Positions 4,592-16,867 of a stretch of 64,000 nucleotides of DNA are shown here, piece after piece. Where the stretch lies: contig CACILT010000003.1 in NCBI GenBank assembly GCA_902587565.1, positions 95,534 through 159,533 on the forward strand, written 5' to 3'. The notes below the pieces were generated by a model. That model ran no database searches. It had not been told where the DNA came from and saw only the letters and a program-made list of their open reading frames with translations. Source of the stretch: an uncultured Alphaproteobacteria bacterium. GTDB taxonomy: Bacteria > Pseudomonadota > Alphaproteobacteria > HIMB59 > GCA-002718135. How positions within the stretch are numbered: the first letter of the stretch is position 1; every line of letters begins with the position of its first letter. The translations under genes were made by a program, and so were the position numbers.

Positions 4592-5509
4592 CTACATAAA
4601 GTCTGAAGCGTTTTCTTTTGTAACTAATACAGTTCCAGTATCGATATTATCAGGAATACTTTCACCATTAGCTAATTTAAGTGCATTTTCTACACCCATG
4701 TATCCCATGTTATATGAGAATTGAGCAATAGTAGCTGACATTTCACCAGCCATTACACTTGCAGCAGCATCAGGGTTAGCATCAAATCCAACAACTACAA
4801 CATCATCTAACATATCAGCATTTTTTAATGCTTGAATAGCACCAAGACCCATGTTGTCGTTAGAAGCAAAAATTGCTTTAAGATTTGGGTTACCAGTGAT
4901 GATATCTTCAGTTACTGACATACCTTTTGCAGTATCCCAGTCTGCTGGAAGTTCAGCAACGATATTCATGCCACAAGCTTCAAGACCTTTATGAGATCCT
5001 TCAGCTCTATGCTGACCAGTAGTTTGAGTAATCATTCCTTGAAGAATTGCAACATCAGAACCACTTGGAACATTATCACAAATATATTGAGCAGCTAAAG
5101 CAGCGCCATTTATATTGTTTGTTCCAATGAAAGTTACACCTTCATTAATTCCATCAGTATCAATGTATACAACTGGAACACCTGAAGCTATTGCGTCATC
5201 AAGAATTGGCGCAACTGCGTTAGGGTCAGTTGGTGCGATTGCGATACCGTCTACACCTTTTGCAATTTGGTCTTCGATTTGTGCTACTTGAGCCATAACA
5301 TCACTTTCTTGTGGTGGTGAAAGGATGATTAGGTTTACGCCAAACTCTTCAGCAGCATCTTTTGCACCAGCTTCTACTGAAGCCCAAAAAGGGTTTCCAG
5401 CACCTGGTCCTTTAGTACTTAACATTATTGTTTTCGCATGCGATCCTGCAAGAAGACTGCCTGAAAAAAACAATAAAGAAGTAGTAATTAAAGAAATAAA
5501 AAGTTTCAT
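4592..5509 (-). CDS. Ribose-type ABC transporter substrate-binding protein
   Basis: Signal peptide plus RbsB-like 'GAGNPFWASVEAGAKDAAEEFG...DGIAIAPTDPNAV...'. Confidence 0.92.
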   Translation of the reverse strand: MKLFISLITTSLLFFSGSLLAGSHAKTIMLSTKGPGAGNPFWASVEAGAKDAAEEFGVNLIILSPPQESDVMAQVAQIEDQIAKGVDGIAIAPTDPNAVAPILDDAIASGVPVVYIDTDGINEGVTFIGTNNINGAALAAQYICDNVPSGSDVAILQGMITQTTGQHRAEGSHKGLEACGMNIVAELPADWDTAKGMSVTEDIITGNPNLKAIFASNDNMGLGAIQALKNADMLDDVVVVGFDANPDAAASVMAGEMSATIAQFSYNMGYMGVENALKLANGESIPDNIDTGTVLVTKENASDFM

Positions 5510-5596
5510 TTTTCCTCCTAAAATTTTCTTTAATCATTAACAAAAATGAAATTCAAATCAAGAGACTGTTTGTCTTAAAATGATTATTTTTTAATA

Positions 5597-6604
5597 TTAA
5601 GTTCTAGTTGCAAGTTGTCTTCTGAGAACATCTATATACACAGCCAAAATAATAATAGACCCAATAAGAACTTGTTGCCAAAAAACACTAACGTTCATTA
5701 GATTTAAACCATTTCTGAGTATGCCCATGATCATAACTCCAGCAAATACACCTAAGACAGTTCCCCTACCTCCAAAGAAACTTGCTCCACCTATAATAAC
5801 TGCTGCAATTGCATCTAGTTCAGATTGCAAACCAGCATTTGGATAAGCAGAATTTGTTCTACCGGCTAAAATTAAACCGCCAATGCCTGCCAAGAAACCG
5901 CAAAGTGTGTAGACGACAATTAAAATTCGGTCTACATTTATACCTGCTGCTCTTGCCGCTCCCGGGTTGCCTCCAATCGCATAAATCCATTTACCAATTC
6001 TTGTATGATTTAAAAAAATCCAAAAGATAAAAAATATTACAATCATTAAAATTAAACTTGTGGGTATGTACTCTCTTGCCCCTTCTCCAAAGAATGCATC
6101 GAGTTTTATTTTACCATTTCCAATAACTCTTATCTCTTCAGCAAAACCTGTTATAGGAACACCTCCAGAAATAAGGTTCCCAATTCCTCTAAATATATAA
6201 AGCGTGCCAAGCGTCATAATAAATGGATGAGGCATCCGAAGTAAAGTAATACCAATACCATTAAACATACCGCACAAAAATCCAATTGCTGGCGCAACTA
6301 ACATCACAACATACCATGGCATTCCAGCTTTTGATGCTATTGCAAGGCCCATTAAAGATAACATAATAATTGACCCTACAGATAAATCTATCCCTGCAGT
6401 CACAATGACCATAAAAACACCAAGTGCTAACATTGATTGCCAAGAAACTTGTTTAAAAACATTTGTTACATTCCTCCATGATAAAAAAACATCAGGTTGC
6501 AATAAATGTAAGACGGCAATCATTATTAAAATTAGCAATAAGATTCCATATCTTTCAAAAAAAGGAATAAGTCTGACAAATAAAGTTTCTTGATTTTTAT
6601 CCAT
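5597..6604 (-). CDS. Ribose-type ABC transporter permease
   Basis: RbsC-like 'MVIVTAGIDLSVGSIIMLSLM', 'IIGGASFFGGRGTVLGVFAGVMIMG'. ORF runs to 6628, but ATG at 6604 (MDKNQETLF) overlaps the ATPase stop as TAATG and is the likelier start. Confidence 0.92.
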   Translation of the reverse strand: MDKNQETLFVRLIPFFERYGILLLILIMIAVLHLLQPDVFLSWRNVTNVFKQVSWQSMLALGVFMVIVTAGIDLSVGSIIMLSLMGLAIASKAGMPWYVVMLVAPAIGFLCGMFNGIGITLLRMPHPFIMTLGTLYIFRGIGNLISGGVPITGFAEEIRVIGNGKIKLDAFFGEGAREYIPTSLILMIVIFFIFWIFLNHTRIGKWIYAIGGNPGAARAAGINVDRILIVVYTLCGFLAGIGGLILAGRTNSAYPNAGLQSELDAIAAVIIGGASFFGGRGTVLGVFAGVMIMGILRNGLNLMNVSVFWQQVLIGSIIILAVYIDVLRRQLATRT

Positions 6605-10377: not shown

Positions 10378-11343
10378 ATGAAAATAGGAATTGTTCAAGA
10401 AATTCACCCAAAAGGTTACGACGTACTTAAAAGAAATAATTTAGATTACTTTGTTATCAATAACACTGAAGAAAGTCATTTAACAGAAAAATTAGCAGAT
10501 GTTGATGGCATAATTGTCAGAACAGCAGATATTAATAAAAAAATTTTATCAAAAGCTAAAAATTTAAAGATTTTATCTAGGCATGGTGTTGGATATGACA
10601 ATGTTGATACAGAGTTTTTAAATACAAATAAAATAGCTTTAGCTATAACGGGAAGCGCCAATGCCACTAGTGTTGCAGAACATGTAATGACAATGATGCT
10701 TTGCCTTACTAAAAATATTTTTGAGTCAGATAAACTAGTTAAATCAAATAAATTTCAGGATAAAGGTAATCTCCCAAATTTTTTTGAACTGTATAAAAAA
10801 AATATATTAATATTAGGTTTTGGCAGAATAGGCAAAGCATTAGCAAAAAGATGTATGGGTTTTGAAATGAATATTTATGTTCACGATCCTTTTGTTTCAA
10901 AAGAGGATATTGCTAAACAGAACTGTATACCTATTGATAAGGAAGAGGGATTCAAAATTGCAGATTATATAAGTATCCACTTACCTTTGAATTCCCATAC
11001 TAAAGATTTAATTTCTTTTGAACAATTTAATATTTTCAAATCAAATTTAATTTTAATTAATACAGCAAGAGGGGGTATTATTAATGAGGAAGCATTATAC
11101 AAAGCTCTAAAAAATAAAAAAATTTTTGGTGCTGGAATAGACGTATTTGAAAAAGAACCTCCTATTGAAAATCATAAATTATTTACTTTAAAGAATACAT
11201 TGTTAACACCTCATAATGCAGCTTTGACTTTAGAATGTAGAAAAAGAATGTCCGTAGAGTCATGCGAAAATGTTGTTAATTTTCTTACAGAAAGTAAAAA
11301 TTTAAATGAAGGTAATATTATTAATTTAAATATTATAAATTAA
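10378..11343 (+). CDS. 2-hydroxyacid dehydrogenase (phosphoglycerate dehydrogenase-like)
   Basis: 'ILILGFGRIGKALAKRCMGFEM', 'NTARGGIINEEALYKALKNKKIFGAGIDVFEKEPP', 'TPHNAALT'. Confidence 0.9.
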   Translation: MKIGIVQEIHPKGYDVLKRNNLDYFVINNTEESHLTEKLADVDGIIVRTADINKKILSKAKNLKILSRHGVGYDNVDTEFLNTNKIALAITGSANATSVAEHVMTMMLCLTKNIFESDKLVKSNKFQDKGNLPNFFELYKKNILILGFGRIGKALAKRCMGFEMNIYVHDPFVSKEDIAKQNCIPIDKEEGFKIADYISIHLPLNSHTKDLISFEQFNIFKSNLILINTARGGIINEEALYKALKNKKIFGAGIDVFEKEPPIENHKLFTLKNTLLTPHNAALTLECRKRMSVESCENVVNFLTESKNLNEGNIINLNIIN

Positions 11344-11660
11344 ATATTTAGATAAAGATTTCCATCTTCTTCTGTTACTTCAAAAACTTTTAATGGGACT
11401 TGATCTAAATCAGAGATGGAATCTCCAGAAACTATACTAAATTTATTACCACAAGTGGGACACTCTAGTTCTTCGCCTTCAATATTAGATTCACTTAATA
11501 AAGTTTTTTCAGCACATGGACAATTTCCTTCAGTTGCAAAGAAACCAGATTCAAGTCTATAAATTGCGTAGTTTATATCTTCGTATTCAAAGTTTTCTAC
11601 AGAACCAATATCGATATCATCGACTTCACCTATTAAGATTGGTTCTACTTCATCATTCAT
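11340..11660 (-). CDS. Small Rieske-like ferredoxin-fold protein with Cys in place of the canonical His ligands
   Basis: 106 aa; 'FATEGNCPCAEKTLLSESNIEGEELECPTCGNKFSIVSGD' aligns by eye with MocE/NirD-like Rieske 'C-x-H...C-P-x-H-G..F' spacing, but reads CPC and CPTC. Confidence 0.72.
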   Translation of the reverse strand: MNDEVEPILIGEVDDIDIGSVENFEYEDINYAIYRLESGFFATEGNCPCAEKTLLSESNIEGEELECPTCGNKFSIVSGDSISDLDQVPLKVFEVTEEDGNLYLNI

Positions 11661-11720: not shown

Positions 11721-12875
11721 TTATCTGAATTTTAGATTTTTTCTTGTTAGTTCTTTTACGTTAGAAACTCCCATTAATTTCATATCTCGTTCAATTTCAT
11801 TGCGTAAATTTGATAAGCTTTTTTCAACTCCTTTTTGACCTCCAGCAGCAAGAGCGTATAAGTACATTCTCCCACCTGAACATGCTTTTGCACCAAGAGA
11901 TAGAGCTTTTAATACATGTGTTCCCCTTCTAATACCTCCCTCACAAATTACATCAATTTTATCTCCAACTGCATCGACTATTTCAGCTAATTGATCAAAG
12001 GGAGATCGGGAACCATCAAGCTGTCTACCACCGTGATTAGAAACCATTATTGCTGAAGCACCAACATCAACAGCTTTCTTTGCGTCATCTACTGACATTA
12101 CACCTTTGATTGCAAATTGACGACCCCACTCTTTATTAATATTTTCAACATCTTTCCAACTCATAGAATTATCAAGCATTTTAGTAAAATAGTCTCCTAT
12201 AGTGGTCATAACGGTAGTACCCTCACTAATGTGATCCTTCAAATTACTCAATTCCCATTTAGGTTTTGTAAAATAATCTACAGCCCATTTTGGGTGTAAC
12301 ATAAAACTTAGAACACTATTAAGTTTGAGTTTCATTGGAATAGTGAAGCCGGTATACAAATCTCTTTCACGGTTTCCTCCTACCGCTGTATCAACAGTAA
12401 CAGCCATTGCTTCAAAATTAGATTCTTTACATCTTTCAATTAAAGCTTTGTTTAGCCCCTTGTCCTTGTGAACATAAAGCTGAAAAAGTTTTGGGGTTTT
12501 TACCAAATTAGATATCTCTTCAATACTTGCTGTCCCCAAAGAAGAAATTCCAAACATAGTTCCAAATTTTTCAGCAGCTTTTGCAACACCTATTTCTCCT
12601 TCGTGATGAAACAATCTTTGAAGAGCAGTTGGTGCGCAGTACAAAGGCATATCTAATTTTTGTCCCATTACCGTAGTTGACATATCTACTTTATCAACTC
12701 CACTTAGAACGTTTGGAATTAAATCACATTGTTCATATGCATCAGTATTTCTTTTGTATGTAATTTCATCATCAGCAGCACCATCAATATAATGAAAGAT
12801 AGGATTGGGAAGTCGTTTCTTTGCTAAATTCCTAAAATCTTTGACATTATGACAGTTATTGACGCTTCCAAACAT
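11721..12875 (-). CDS. lldD: FMN-dependent alpha-hydroxy-acid dehydrogenase (L-lactate dehydrogenase family)
   Basis: 'LQLYVHKDKGL', 'AVTVDTAVGGNRERDLYTGF', 'AIMVSNHGGRQLDGSRSPFDQL', 'EGGIRRGTHVLKALSLGAKACSGGR'. Confidence 0.9.
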   Translation of the reverse strand: MFGSVNNCHNVKDFRNLAKKRLPNPIFHYIDGAADDEITYKRNTDAYEQCDLIPNVLSGVDKVDMSTTVMGQKLDMPLYCAPTALQRLFHHEGEIGVAKAAEKFGTMFGISSLGTASIEEISNLVKTPKLFQLYVHKDKGLNKALIERCKESNFEAMAVTVDTAVGGNRERDLYTGFTIPMKLKLNSVLSFMLHPKWAVDYFTKPKWELSNLKDHISEGTTVMTTIGDYFTKMLDNSMSWKDVENINKEWGRQFAIKGVMSVDDAKKAVDVGASAIMVSNHGGRQLDGSRSPFDQLAEIVDAVGDKIDVICEGGIRRGTHVLKALSLGAKACSGGRMYLYALAAGGQKGVEKSLSNLRNEIERDMKLMGVSNVKELTRKNLKFR

Positions 12876-13723
12876 TATGCCTGAATTGTTTTTTGTGTTT
12901 GTTCTCCTAAGCCCTCAATTCCTAATTTCATTACATCACCAGCCTTTAAAAATACTTGGGGCTTCATTCCCATGCCAACACCAGGGGGTGTTCCTGTAGA
13001 AATAATATCCCCTGGCTGTAATGACATAAATTGGCTTAGATAACTTATTAAGAAGTTTACACCGTAAACCATTGTGCTAGTTGAACCATCTTGCATTGTT
13101 TTACCATTAACCTCTAGCCACATCTTTAAATTTTGGGGATCAGGCACCTCATCTGTTGTTACTAAGTAAGGTCCAATGGGCCCAAACGTATCACATGATT
13201 TACCTTTGACCCATTGACCCGAATGTTCAATTTGAAATTCTCTTTCACTAAGATCGTTTATGACACAATATCCAGCTATATGTGCTTGTGACTCACTCTC
13301 GGAAATATATTTTGCTTCTTTTCCTATAACAACTCCAAGTTCAACTTCCCAATCAGACTTTACAGATTTCTTTGGGATTTCTACATCATCATTTGGACCA
13401 ATTACAGCGCTTGTTGCTTTTGCAAATATAATTGGTTCAGGTGGCACTTTTTGTCCTGTTTCTTCAGCATGATCAGAATAGTTTAGACCAATACAAATAA
13501 ATTTACCTATACTTTCTTTACAAACACAAGGTGCAATACCGTCATGACTTGCAACTATGGGTAAAGATTCAAGGTCAGCTTTTTTTACTTCATTAAGCTT
13601 ATCGATAGTTATATTTTTGTTATCCCAATCTTTTACTAAAGAAGAAGCATCACGAACTTGCCCCTGTGTATCTAATATCCCTGGTTTTACTTCTTTACCA
13701 ATTCTGTATCTTAAAGTTTTCAT
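12875..13723 (-). CDS. Fumarylacetoacetate hydrolase family protein (candidate 2,4-diketo-3-deoxy-L-fuconate hydrolase)
   Basis: 'FICIGLNYSDHAEETGQKVPPEPIIFAKATSAVIGPNDDVEIP', 'DWEVELGVVIGKEAKYI', 'GDIISTGTPPGVGMG'. ORF opens at 13735; MKTLRYRIG start at 13723. Confidence 0.92.
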   Translation of the reverse strand: MKTLRYRIGKEVKPGILDTQGQVRDASSLVKDWDNKNITIDKLNEVKKADLESLPIVASHDGIAPCVCKESIGKFICIGLNYSDHAEETGQKVPPEPIIFAKATSAVIGPNDDVEIPKKSVKSDWEVELGVVIGKEAKYISESESQAHIAGYCVINDLSEREFQIEHSGQWVKGKSCDTFGPIGPYLVTTDEVPDPQNLKMWLEVNGKTMQDGSTSTMVYGVNFLISYLSQFMSLQPGDIISTGTPPGVGMGMKPQVFLKAGDVMKLGIEGLGEQTQKTIQA

Positions 13724-14460
13724 TATAAAGTCCATCCTCCATCTATTAAATTTAGTGTTCCTGTTACAAAGTCTGATTCATCACTTGCTAAATAAGTTGC
13801 AAGTGAAGCAATTTCTTCAGGTTGCGCCAATCTACCCATAGCTTGTCTGGCAATAAAATCCTCTCGAGCTTTTTTTGGATCATCGGCCATGTTTACTCTA
13901 CCTTCCCATGAAGGTGTTTCCACAGTTCCAGGGAGTATTGCATTACAGCGTATTCCATTTTTAACATAATCTGCGGCAAGAGCTTTAACAAATCCATTTA
14001 GCGCAGCTTTTGTTGTACCATAAATAAATCTGTTAGGTGCTCCTTTTACATTTGAGGCAGCAGAAGATACAATTATTATATTTCCTTTTCCTTGATCCAA
14101 CATTTTAGGTAATAAATTGTAACTCATTAAATAAGCTGAAAATACATTTACATTAATCGATCGATAAAATTCTGTTTCATCACATTGCAATAATGTTCCG
14201 TGATGAACAAAACCTACAGCATGAAAAAGAACGTCAACAACGTCAATAGTGGAACAAAATTCTTCAACTGCATTTTTATCTGTTGCATCTAGTTTTTGAG
14301 TTTTTATTGAATTATTTTCTTTATTTAATTCAACTAGTTTTTCTTCATTAATATCGGTTGCAATGATAGAAGCACCTTCGTTAGCAAATTTAAGTGCTGT
14401 TGCTCTACCTATACCTTGTGCTGCTGCAGTCACTATTATTTTTTTATCTTTTAATCTCAT
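13723..14460 (-). CDS. Short-chain dehydrogenase (candidate 2-keto-3-deoxy-L-fuconate dehydrogenase)
   Basis: SDR motifs 'VTAAAQGIGRATA', 'YGTTKAAL'; gene context between fuconate dehydratase and FAH hydrolase. Confidence 0.9.
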   Translation of the reverse strand: MRLKDKKIIVTAAAQGIGRATALKFANEGASIIATDINEEKLVELNKENNSIKTQKLDATDKNAVEEFCSTIDVVDVLFHAVGFVHHGTLLQCDETEFYRSINVNVFSAYLMSYNLLPKMLDQGKGNIIIVSSAASNVKGAPNRFIYGTTKAALNGFVKALAADYVKNGIRCNAILPGTVETPSWEGRVNMADDPKKAREDFIARQAMGRLAQPEEIASLATYLASDESDFVTGTLNLIDGGWTL

Positions 14461-15758
14461 ATGTTATTCTTCCAATAATCGCCGTTAGGAAATGAAAACT
14501 CATTAACAGACTTTTCTTTCATTTCAATAGAATATCCATGATCAAGTGGTGGCATATAATTTCCATTTTCAATCCTGCATGGATATATAAAGTGTTCATG
14601 CAAACTGTCTTGATATTCTACTACCTTGTCATTTTTAGAACCGTTAATCAAAACATAGTCAATCATACATAAGTGCTGAACATACTCGCAGAGACCAACG
14701 CCACCTGCATGTGGAAAAACAGGCACGTTAAATTTATGTGCCATTAATAGAACTGTTATTATTTCATTAATACTACCCAGTCGACAACTATCAATTTGAC
14801 AAATGTTCATTGCACCGGATTCAAGAAACTGTTTAAACATAATACGACCTCCACATGCCTCTCCTGTTGCAAGTCTTACATCTCCTACTGCTTTCTTGAT
14901 TTTGGCAAAACCCATTACATCATCTGGGCTTGTAGGTTCTTCTACAAAAAATAAATCAAATTTTTTGTATGCATTAATATGTTTAATCGATTGTTCCACG
15001 TTCCATTGTTGGTTTGCATCCACCATAATAAAACAATCATCACCAATTGTTTTTCTAATTAACTCAAGTCTTTTTACATCTGCTTCTAGATCTAAGCCCA
15101 CTTTGATTTTAAAATGTTTCCAACCTTGTGCCATATAATCTTTGCATAGTTGGATTATTTTTTCATCTGAATACCCAAGCCAACCTGCAGCAGTTGTGTA
15201 AGATGGATATCCTTCTTGCAAAACTGTATCGATACGTTTTTGTTTATCATTTTGATTGTTTGTCAAGATCGATAACGCTTCCTCTGGGGTTAAAACATCT
15301 TCAATATATTTAAATGTTAACCAACTAACTATTTTTTCAGGCTCACTTTCTACAACAAACTGCCACAAAGGTTTTTTATGCTTCTTAGCAATTAAATCCC
15401 ATAAACAATTAAAGATTGCTGATACAGCCATATGGACAACTCCTTTTTCAGGACCTAACCAACGTAGTTGACTATGATCAACACACCTGAACCAGAGCTT
15501 ACCAATATTATTTTCTAAATCATTTAAGTCCATATTTTCAAAAATTGGAAAAAAATGTTTTATACATTCAGCAACAATGTCATTTCCTTTACCAATCGTG
15601 AATGCAATACCATATCCTTTTAACTCTGATTGATCAGTAAAAGCTGTCACATACGTTGCTGAATAATCAGGATCTGTATGAATGGCATCTGACCCTGTTA
15701 AATCTTTTGAAGTAGGAAATCTGACATCTTGAACACTAAATTTAGTAATCTTTGTCAT
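14457..15758 (-). CDS. L-fuconate dehydratase-like enolase superfamily protein
   Basis: 'FSVQDVRFPTSKDLTGSDAIHTDPDYSATYVTAFTDQSELKGYGIAFTIGKGNDIV', 'FKIKVGLD', 'MVDANQQW', 'FVEEPTSPDDV', 'HAGGVGLCEYVQHL'. Confidence 0.93.
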   Translation of the reverse strand: MTKITKFSVQDVRFPTSKDLTGSDAIHTDPDYSATYVTAFTDQSELKGYGIAFTIGKGNDIVAECIKHFFPIFENMDLNDLENNIGKLWFRCVDHSQLRWLGPEKGVVHMAVSAIFNCLWDLIAKKHKKPLWQFVVESEPEKIVSWLTFKYIEDVLTPEEALSILTNNQNDKQKRIDTVLQEGYPSYTTAAGWLGYSDEKIIQLCKDYMAQGWKHFKIKVGLDLEADVKRLELIRKTIGDDCFIMVDANQQWNVEQSIKHINAYKKFDLFFVEEPTSPDDVMGFAKIKKAVGDVRLATGEACGGRIMFKQFLESGAMNICQIDSCRLGSINEIITVLLMAHKFNVPVFPHAGGVGLCEYVQHLCMIDYVLINGSKNDKVVEYQDSLHEHFIYPCRIENGNYMPPLDHGYSIEMKEKSVNEFSFPNGDYWKNNI

Positions 15759-15760
15759 TT

Positions 15761-16867
15761 TTAAATTTTTTTGAAAGTTGTATTATCTATAAAATCCCAA
15801 TTTAAATCAATACCAAGACCTGGCTTAGAAGGTAAATGGGCATAACCGTTTTCAACTTTGATAGAATCTTTTAAACCAAAATTAAAATATTCGTAAGGCA
15901 CAAGTACTTCAAAAAATTCAGAATTTTTTATAGCTGCGCAACAATGTAAATTAACTAATTCTAAAGGATGATAAATAGCTGTATGAATTTCACATTGAAC
16001 ACCAAAACTTTCTGCTAAGTGAGCCGTTTTCATTGTAGCGGTAATACCTCCACTCCAAGATGGATCTGCTCTCACCATGTCAACAACTCTTGTAGAGATA
16101 CATTCTGCAACACTGTAAGGATGTTTTGCAATAACTTCAGTTCCAATAATTGGAATATCTAATATTCTAGTTAACTCTCTTAAATTATGAAAATTTTCAT
16201 CAAATAAAGGTTCCTCGTACCAATAATAATTTAATTTTTCTAACTCTCTTCCAAAACGTAATGCTTGCTCAAATGTGTAAGGAGCAACTGGGTCACTCAT
16301 AAGTTTAAAATCATCACCTACAGCCTCGCGTACTTTTTTGTGAGCTTCTAAATCAAAATCATATTCTCCAGGAGGATGGAGTTTGTATGCTTTAAAGCCT
16401 CTCTTTTTATATTCTACAGCTTCTTTTGCATAAGCTTCAGGTGAATCTAAAACAAGTGAGCTTCCATAAATTGGAACCTTATCTCTATAAGCACCTAAAT
16501 ATTTATAAAGAGGTTGACCTGCTTGCAGAGATGAGAGAAGCCAACAATTAATATCAAATGGTCCATAGCTATAAATAGGTGCGTGATTCCACCATCTGTC
16601 TGCAGTTCTGTATTCATGCCAGTGTTGCTCACGATATAGCGGGTCTCTACCAATGAAAAAAGGTTTAAAGATTGAATTAGCAATTTCTCCTGCCATTTCT
16701 GCACCTCTGCCTGCAAACCCAAAAGTTGAGCTGGATAGATCTTCATCAGTGTGAAATGTGATAACTAAGAATTCTAAATCTGATTTTTTCCCATCTCTCA
16801 TTTCTGAATCTTTCATGACAGGCTCTTTGTGTCGACACATGCGAATTTCTATATCTTTAATTTTCAT
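15761..16867 (-). CDS. Mandelate racemase/muconate lactonizing (enolase superfamily) protein, probable sugar-acid dehydratase
   Basis: 'FKAYKLHPPG' (K-x-H), 'LMSDPVAPYTFEQAL', 'YWYEEPL', 'IIGTEV', 'EIHTAIYHPLELVNLHCCAAI'. Confidence 0.87.
   Translation of the reverse strand: MKIKDIEIRMCRHKEPVMKDSEMRDGKKSDLEFLVITFHTDEDLSSSTFGFAGRGAEMAGEIANSIFKPFFIGRDPLYREQHWHEYRTADRWWNHAPIYSYGPFDINCWLLSSLQAGQPLYKYLGAYRDKVPIYGSSLVLDSPEAYAKEAVEYKKRGFKAYKLHPPGEYDFDLEAHKKVREAVGDDFKLMSDPVAPYTFEQALRFGRELEKLNYYWYEEPLFDENFHNLRELTRILDIPIIGTEVIAKHPYSVAECISTRVVDMVRADPSWSGGITATMKTAHLAESFGVQCEIHTAIYHPLELVNLHCCAAIKNSEFFEVLVPYEYFNFGLKDSIKVENGYAHLPSKPGLGIDLNWDFIDNTTFKKI

Follow-up and report, generated by a model that had tools for sequence, protein, structure and literature searches.

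A conserved subfamily of Rieske-type ferredoxins from marine Alphaproteobacteria with cysteine at all four predicted ligand positions

Histidine ligation is the defining trait of a Rieske centre, and a small gene in DNA from an uncultured alphaproteobacterium raises the question of what a Rieske-like ferredoxin may bind, and for which partner, when cysteines stand where both histidines belong. The gene, which we call RSK4C, occupies 11340..11660 (minus strand, stop codon included) of the window, by which we mean the whole 64,000-nucleotide stretch that was analysed. A sequence-only reading had described it as a frame for 106 amino acids containing GNCPCAEKTLLSESNIEGEELECPTCGNKFSIVSGD, 60 bp downstream of an FMN hydroxyacid dehydrogenase gene on the same strand. 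This description is accurate: the frame lies on the minus strand and opens with ATG 60 bp past the stop codon of the dehydrogenase gene (11721..12875). The ligand motif of the protein is C-x-C-x17-C-x2-C, as against C-x-H...C-x2-H in Rieske proteins. By coordinates derived from the translation, the first ligand loop, C47-P-C49 (normally C-x-H), lies at 11514..11522 and the second, C67-P-T-C70-G (normally C-P-x-H-G), at 11448..11462, both on the minus strand. The protein contains exactly four cysteines and no histidine, so that a Rieske Cys2His2 cluster cannot form. Among the 86 open reading frames of at least 60 codons in the window, the four-cysteine pattern is unique to RSK4C. The protein is very acidic (pI about 4.05), as are many ferredoxins, and the GC content of its gene (31%) resembles that of the window. 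A D-2-hydroxyacid dehydrogenase gene (10378-11343, plus strand) converges on RSK4C with a 4 nt overlap of the stop codons, and diverges faster than its neighbours (50–80% identity in relatives).

By scoring the protein against family models and solved structures we find that its Rieske assignment stands. The Pfam Rieske model (PF00355), the search that had been proposed as a check, matches RSK4C at E=4.6e-6 with 26.9 bits, over the cut-off of 20.3. The proposed comparison with MocE and NirD holds in part: these two models give the best family-model matches, over the full length, whereas the scores lie far below the curated cut-offs (NirD, TIGR02378, 3.9e-11 and 43 bits against 74.65; MocE, TIGR02377, 2.2e-9 and 37.2 bits against 136.15). 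RSK4C also differs from both in its ligands and in having neither a nitrite reductase nor an oxygenase as partner. The solved dioxygenase ferredoxin CarAc (PDB 1vck) matches at 3.3e-10, and a profile of 21 orthologues run against the PDB finds CarAc at 2.6e-9, BphA3 at 1.8e-8 and BphF at 3.1e-8 (2e4p/1fqt). RSK4C is like these dioxygenase ferredoxins in length, in sequence profile and in the positions of the ligand loops. Ungapped alignments to BphF and BphA3 place its four cysteines on the four Rieske ligand positions, and the motif spans 24 residues as in BphF, bearing out the claim that cysteine replaces both histidines at Rieske spacing. It differs in that both histidine ligands are cysteine and in its FMN dehydrogenase neighbour, and also in that no Rieske oxygenase was found in a 92%-complete relative (G422). 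Most Rieske ferredoxins deliver electrons to such oxygenases. Three Rieske-domain proteins were found in that relative: RSK4C itself, a normal ferredoxin, and a third whose score and position agree with those of the bc1 Rieske protein in its relatives.

The genome of the window likewise has its own normal ferredoxin, with CTH...CPMH ligands (G000 contig C3:41577-41870, L034), which adjoins a BphA4-like ferredoxin reductase. It is about 30% identical to RSK4C, and hhalign of the RSK4C profile with the profile of normal ferredoxins from these same genomes returns a probability of 99.4%. Unlike RSK4C, it has canonical ligands and another neighbourhood, and it falls in a separate clade: in a tree with the normal ferredoxins the four-cysteine proteins form a single clade on a long branch, with support of 100/100. 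The motif span of this normal ferredoxin is 23 residues, one shorter than in RSK4C, and a gap may therefore fall beside the second ligand, leaving loop 1 slightly ambiguous in this one alignment. Structure prediction was less telling. Two AlphaFold2 runs on shallow alignments (13 and 20 orthologues) gave a mean pLDDT of 59–60 and a pTM of 0.52; in both models pLDDT fell below 50 across the ligand loops, residues 46–90 were poor, and the models are too weak to place the cysteine side chains. With the first of these low-confidence models the top PDB matches in Foldseek were all Rieske ferredoxins (E about 1e-4), which we count as weak support because TM-scores were near 0.5 (0.5–0.55) and the rmsd was about 9. 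Taken at the level of sequence comparison, membership of RSK4C in the Rieske ferredoxin superfamily is confirmed and the kinship goes beyond chance; by its ligand set RSK4C is not a Rieske protein, but by descent it is one.

We then asked how far the ligand pattern is conserved, which the sequence-only reading had named as a check. Orthologues were drawn from 32 close loci found by a scan (one genome per species) and from the 86 genomes that matched above 150 bits when 162 genomes of the order were searched with a profile. All 118 loci were read, yielding 65 distinct proteins, and some genomes may be present in both sets. The motif C-x-C-x17-C-x2-C is kept with constant spacing in every one of the 118, down to 58% identity, and all four cysteines are invariant in the 65 distinct proteins. 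The residue between the first two cysteines varies (P, N, H, Y, T, V, L, S or F); the middle position of loop 1 is thus free, and the cysteines are conserved while their neighbours are not. Invariant positions number 25, including C47, C49, C67, C70 and a SIVSGD stretch after loop 2. Exactly four cysteines occur in 42 of the distinct proteins, and 20 of them, that of the window included, lack histidine altogether.

The distribution of the family is narrow. All 86 genomes from the profile search belong to one family of the order (f1), where they are spread over several genera, and the 32 close loci come from single-cell genomes of marine origin, recorded as Alphaproteobacteria or Pelagibacteraceae. 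Samples of 385 Alphaproteobacteria and 399 Pseudomonadota genomes yielded no four-cysteine member beyond a single alphaproteobacterial family; in these class and phylum samples the matches outside the order were all ordinary CTH or CPH ... CPxH proteins. Phage records and IMG/VR contigs held no four-cysteine relatives, and further viral scans for relatives were likewise empty. Matches on plasmids stayed under 40% identity, and most of them carry an annotation as MocE or dioxygenase ferredoxin. In the sister family (f2) a canonical intermediate was sought next to the FMN dehydrogenase gene and none was found, the gene being simply absent there. To judge by a GC content of 31% and expanded sugar use, the order is probably SAR11 subclade V / HIMB59 (AEGEAN-169) (PMC10308909).

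RSK4C ends a run of minus-strand genes that is suggestive of sugar-acid breakdown. Directly upstream of it, the product of 11721..12875 is an LldD-like, FMN-dependent L-lactate (2-hydroxyacid) dehydrogenase (PF01070, 4e-130; LldD-type models; L-lactate oxidase, glycolate oxidase and mandelate dehydrogenase in the PDB). This is preceded by genes for a FAH-fold hydrolase whose nearest solved relative is L-2,4-diketo-3-deoxyrhamnonate hydrolase (12875..13735; 8gsr, E=6.9e-85), a short-chain dehydrogenase (SDR; 13723..14460; PF13561) that from its place in the cassette is probably a 2-keto-3-deoxyfuconate dehydrogenase, an L-fuconate dehydratase of the enolase superfamily (14457..15758; L-fuconate dehydratases 2hne and 1yey, E~2e-140) and a second enolase-superfamily enzyme (15761..16867; PF13378). 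In many relatives, for example at L003 and L005, the two enolase genes (14457-16867 in the window, minus strand) are missing from the locus, and the SDR, FAH hydrolase, FMN dehydrogenase and RSK4C genes stand behind a different gene block. The cassette is predicted to convert L-fuconate to pyruvate and L-lactate; its enzymes together make up the non-phosphorylating route for L-fucose and L-rhamnose, which ends in these two products. For L-fucose breakdown in bacteria, the dehydrogenase step has been described (PMC11199699). Compared with soluble L-lactate oxidase the FMN dehydrogenase has a long insert (between residues 184 and 236). Such an insert is typical of membrane-type FMN dehydrogenases. 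Enzymes of the LldD-like class can deliver electrons directly to quinones in the membrane pool, which speaks against a need for a carrier such as RSK4C.

An electron-transfer partnership between RSK4C and this enzyme had been proposed from their adjacency. The adjacency itself extends to 116 of the 118 loci, with a gap of 42–63 nt (60 in 85 of them). Of the two exceptions, one locus (L144) is cut off by the end of its contig. In the other (L079; G486 contig C46, 2173-2493) RSK4C directly follows the FAH hydrolase gene, and a search at E 1e-90 found the FMN dehydrogenase neither at the locus nor elsewhere in this 91%-complete genome, making it the only true break in the pairing. The reverse holds in sister family f2, where the FMN dehydrogenase occurs at 64–84% identity and RSK4C is missing, and one of its genomes (G500; L106, 118-4155) carries the enolase, SDR, FAH hydrolase and FMN dehydrogenase cassette with no RSK4C. 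Since the dehydrogenase is lacking in the first case and RSK4C in the second, RSK4C is linked to the cassette and very probably to the FMN dehydrogenase, which does not in general depend on it. The adjacency on which the proposal rested stands, and the partnership itself is partly supported, being credible though not strictly kept. At a further locus (L068 in G428; 5362-6517, minus strand) an in-frame TGA splits the FMN dehydrogenase gene beside an intact RSK4C, which may reflect a recent loss of the gene or an error in sequencing. We also considered charge complementarity as a sign of partnership, the dehydrogenase being basic (pI 8.7) beside the acidic RSK4C; we rejected it since the mean pI of the dehydrogenase hardly differs between genomes with RSK4C (8.6) and without it (8.1) and so fails to separate them.

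For the detailed fold of RSK4C, its metal, its role as an electron carrier and its partner we infer the following model. RSK4C would be a stand-alone protein of the Rieske-ferredoxin fold that has permanently exchanged both histidine ligands for cysteine, and the four cysteines, placed at the tips of both Rieske loops, would bind one metal centre. This would most likely be a [2Fe-2S] centre with four cysteine ligands, whose potential should then be much lower than that of a Rieske ferredoxin. The protein may shuttle single electrons for a redox step of the L-fuconate/L-rhamnonate-type cassette, most probably beside the FMN L-lactate dehydrogenase of LldD-like type. As a whole, that RSK4C is an acidic electron carrier with an all-cysteine [2Fe-2S] centre on a Rieske scaffold, serving this redox step, has in our judgement an even chance of being right.

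A close rival is that the four cysteines bind a single zinc or iron in the manner of a zinc ribbon or rubredoxin; the sequence-only reading had put forward an all-cysteine [2Fe-2S] centre and a zinc or rubredoxin-like site as its two options. With zinc, RSK4C would serve as a structural or adaptor subunit that takes no part in redox chemistry, and with iron it would be a rubredoxin-like carrier. Work on the archaeal Rieske ferredoxin ARF of Sulfolobus solfataricus bears on both readings (PMC2946596). There, the spacing and kind of the ligands largely decide between a [2Fe-2S] and a mononuclear iron centre, and Rieske ligand loops are geometrically like those of rubredoxins and zinc ribbons. 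The H44C mutant failed, and in the H44C/H64C double mutant, which has the ligand pattern of RSK4C on the same scaffold, the cluster was largely not assembled, a result that counts against the [2Fe-2S] reading. This double mutant is a laboratory construct, whereas the pattern in RSK4C is natural and conserved. The triple mutant H44I/K45C/H64C, with C-x-x-C in loop 1, holds a rubredoxin-like mononuclear Fe(Cys)4 site, which speaks for the single-metal rival (PMC2946596). The CPxCG of loop 2 likewise resembles the knuckle of rubredoxins and of zinc ribbons such as LysW and Trm112, with which RSK4C shares four cysteines and which it weakly matches. However, these matches lie below cut-off (for LysW 15.5 against 27 bits in Pfam and 27.8 against 75 bits in NCBIfam) and are confined to loop 2 and what follows it, the full-length match being to Rieske ferredoxins. 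Moreover, rubredoxins have two C-x-x-C knuckles, whereas the first pair in RSK4C is C-x-C throughout the 118 loci and never the C-x-x-C that ARF needed for its mononuclear site. Retention of the C-x-C of the failed construct favours a polynuclear centre over a rubredoxin site, although only modestly, and a polynuclear centre would imply that the rest of RSK4C has adapted to it. We therefore regard a single-metal site as a serious possibility that falls somewhat short of an even chance.

It is improbable that the four cysteines serve as redox-active disulphides or in thiol chemistry with no metal at all: CxC and CxxC, the two close pairs of RSK4C, do also occur as redox disulphide motifs, but here they fall exactly on the four Rieske metal-ligand positions with constant spacing, in a cytoplasmic sugar-acid cassette where no thioredoxin-type neighbour was seen. 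Finally, ligands are known to have been lost in some NirD-type proteins, but a decayed Rieske ferredoxin, a sequencing error or a pseudogene is ruled out by conservation and by dN/dS, given that the same four cysteines recur in intact frames in 65 distinct proteins from several genera, that no orthologue with CxH/CxxH, which might have marked the copy in the window as degenerate, was found among the 118 loci, and that RSK4C is under purifying selection (pairwise dN/dS 0.05–0.07 at dS 0.7–1.7).

As judged from these sequences, RSK4C represents a real and conserved ligand-swapped subfamily of Rieske-fold proteins. Each of the three outcomes that the sequence-only reading had named as refuting was looked at, and none went against it, although the weak structure models say little on the placement of the cysteines. 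A bolder version of the all-cysteine [2Fe-2S] reading, which we think unlikely though worth stating, is that a Rieske ferredoxin was naturally converted, lineage-wide, into an all-cysteine [2Fe-2S] protein that is the dedicated low-potential electron acceptor or donor of a membrane-type FMN L-lactate dehydrogenase. If true, nature would sustain a set of ligands that proved beyond a designed Rieske mutant, and a new electron route would lead from lactate oxidation. In the literature searched, whose coverage leaves out most subscription journals, we found no report of a natural Cys4 family on a Rieske scaffold. A conserved family of this kind would put directly to the test which features select for a Rieske centre, a plant-type [2Fe-2S] centre or mononuclear iron or zinc; since laboratory mutants of like design largely failed to assemble a cluster, the natural protein may reveal what further the scaffold needs. 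Annotation pipelines will label RSK4C as a Rieske or MocE ferredoxin, and would thereby assign the wrong redox chemistry to this group of ocean bacteria.
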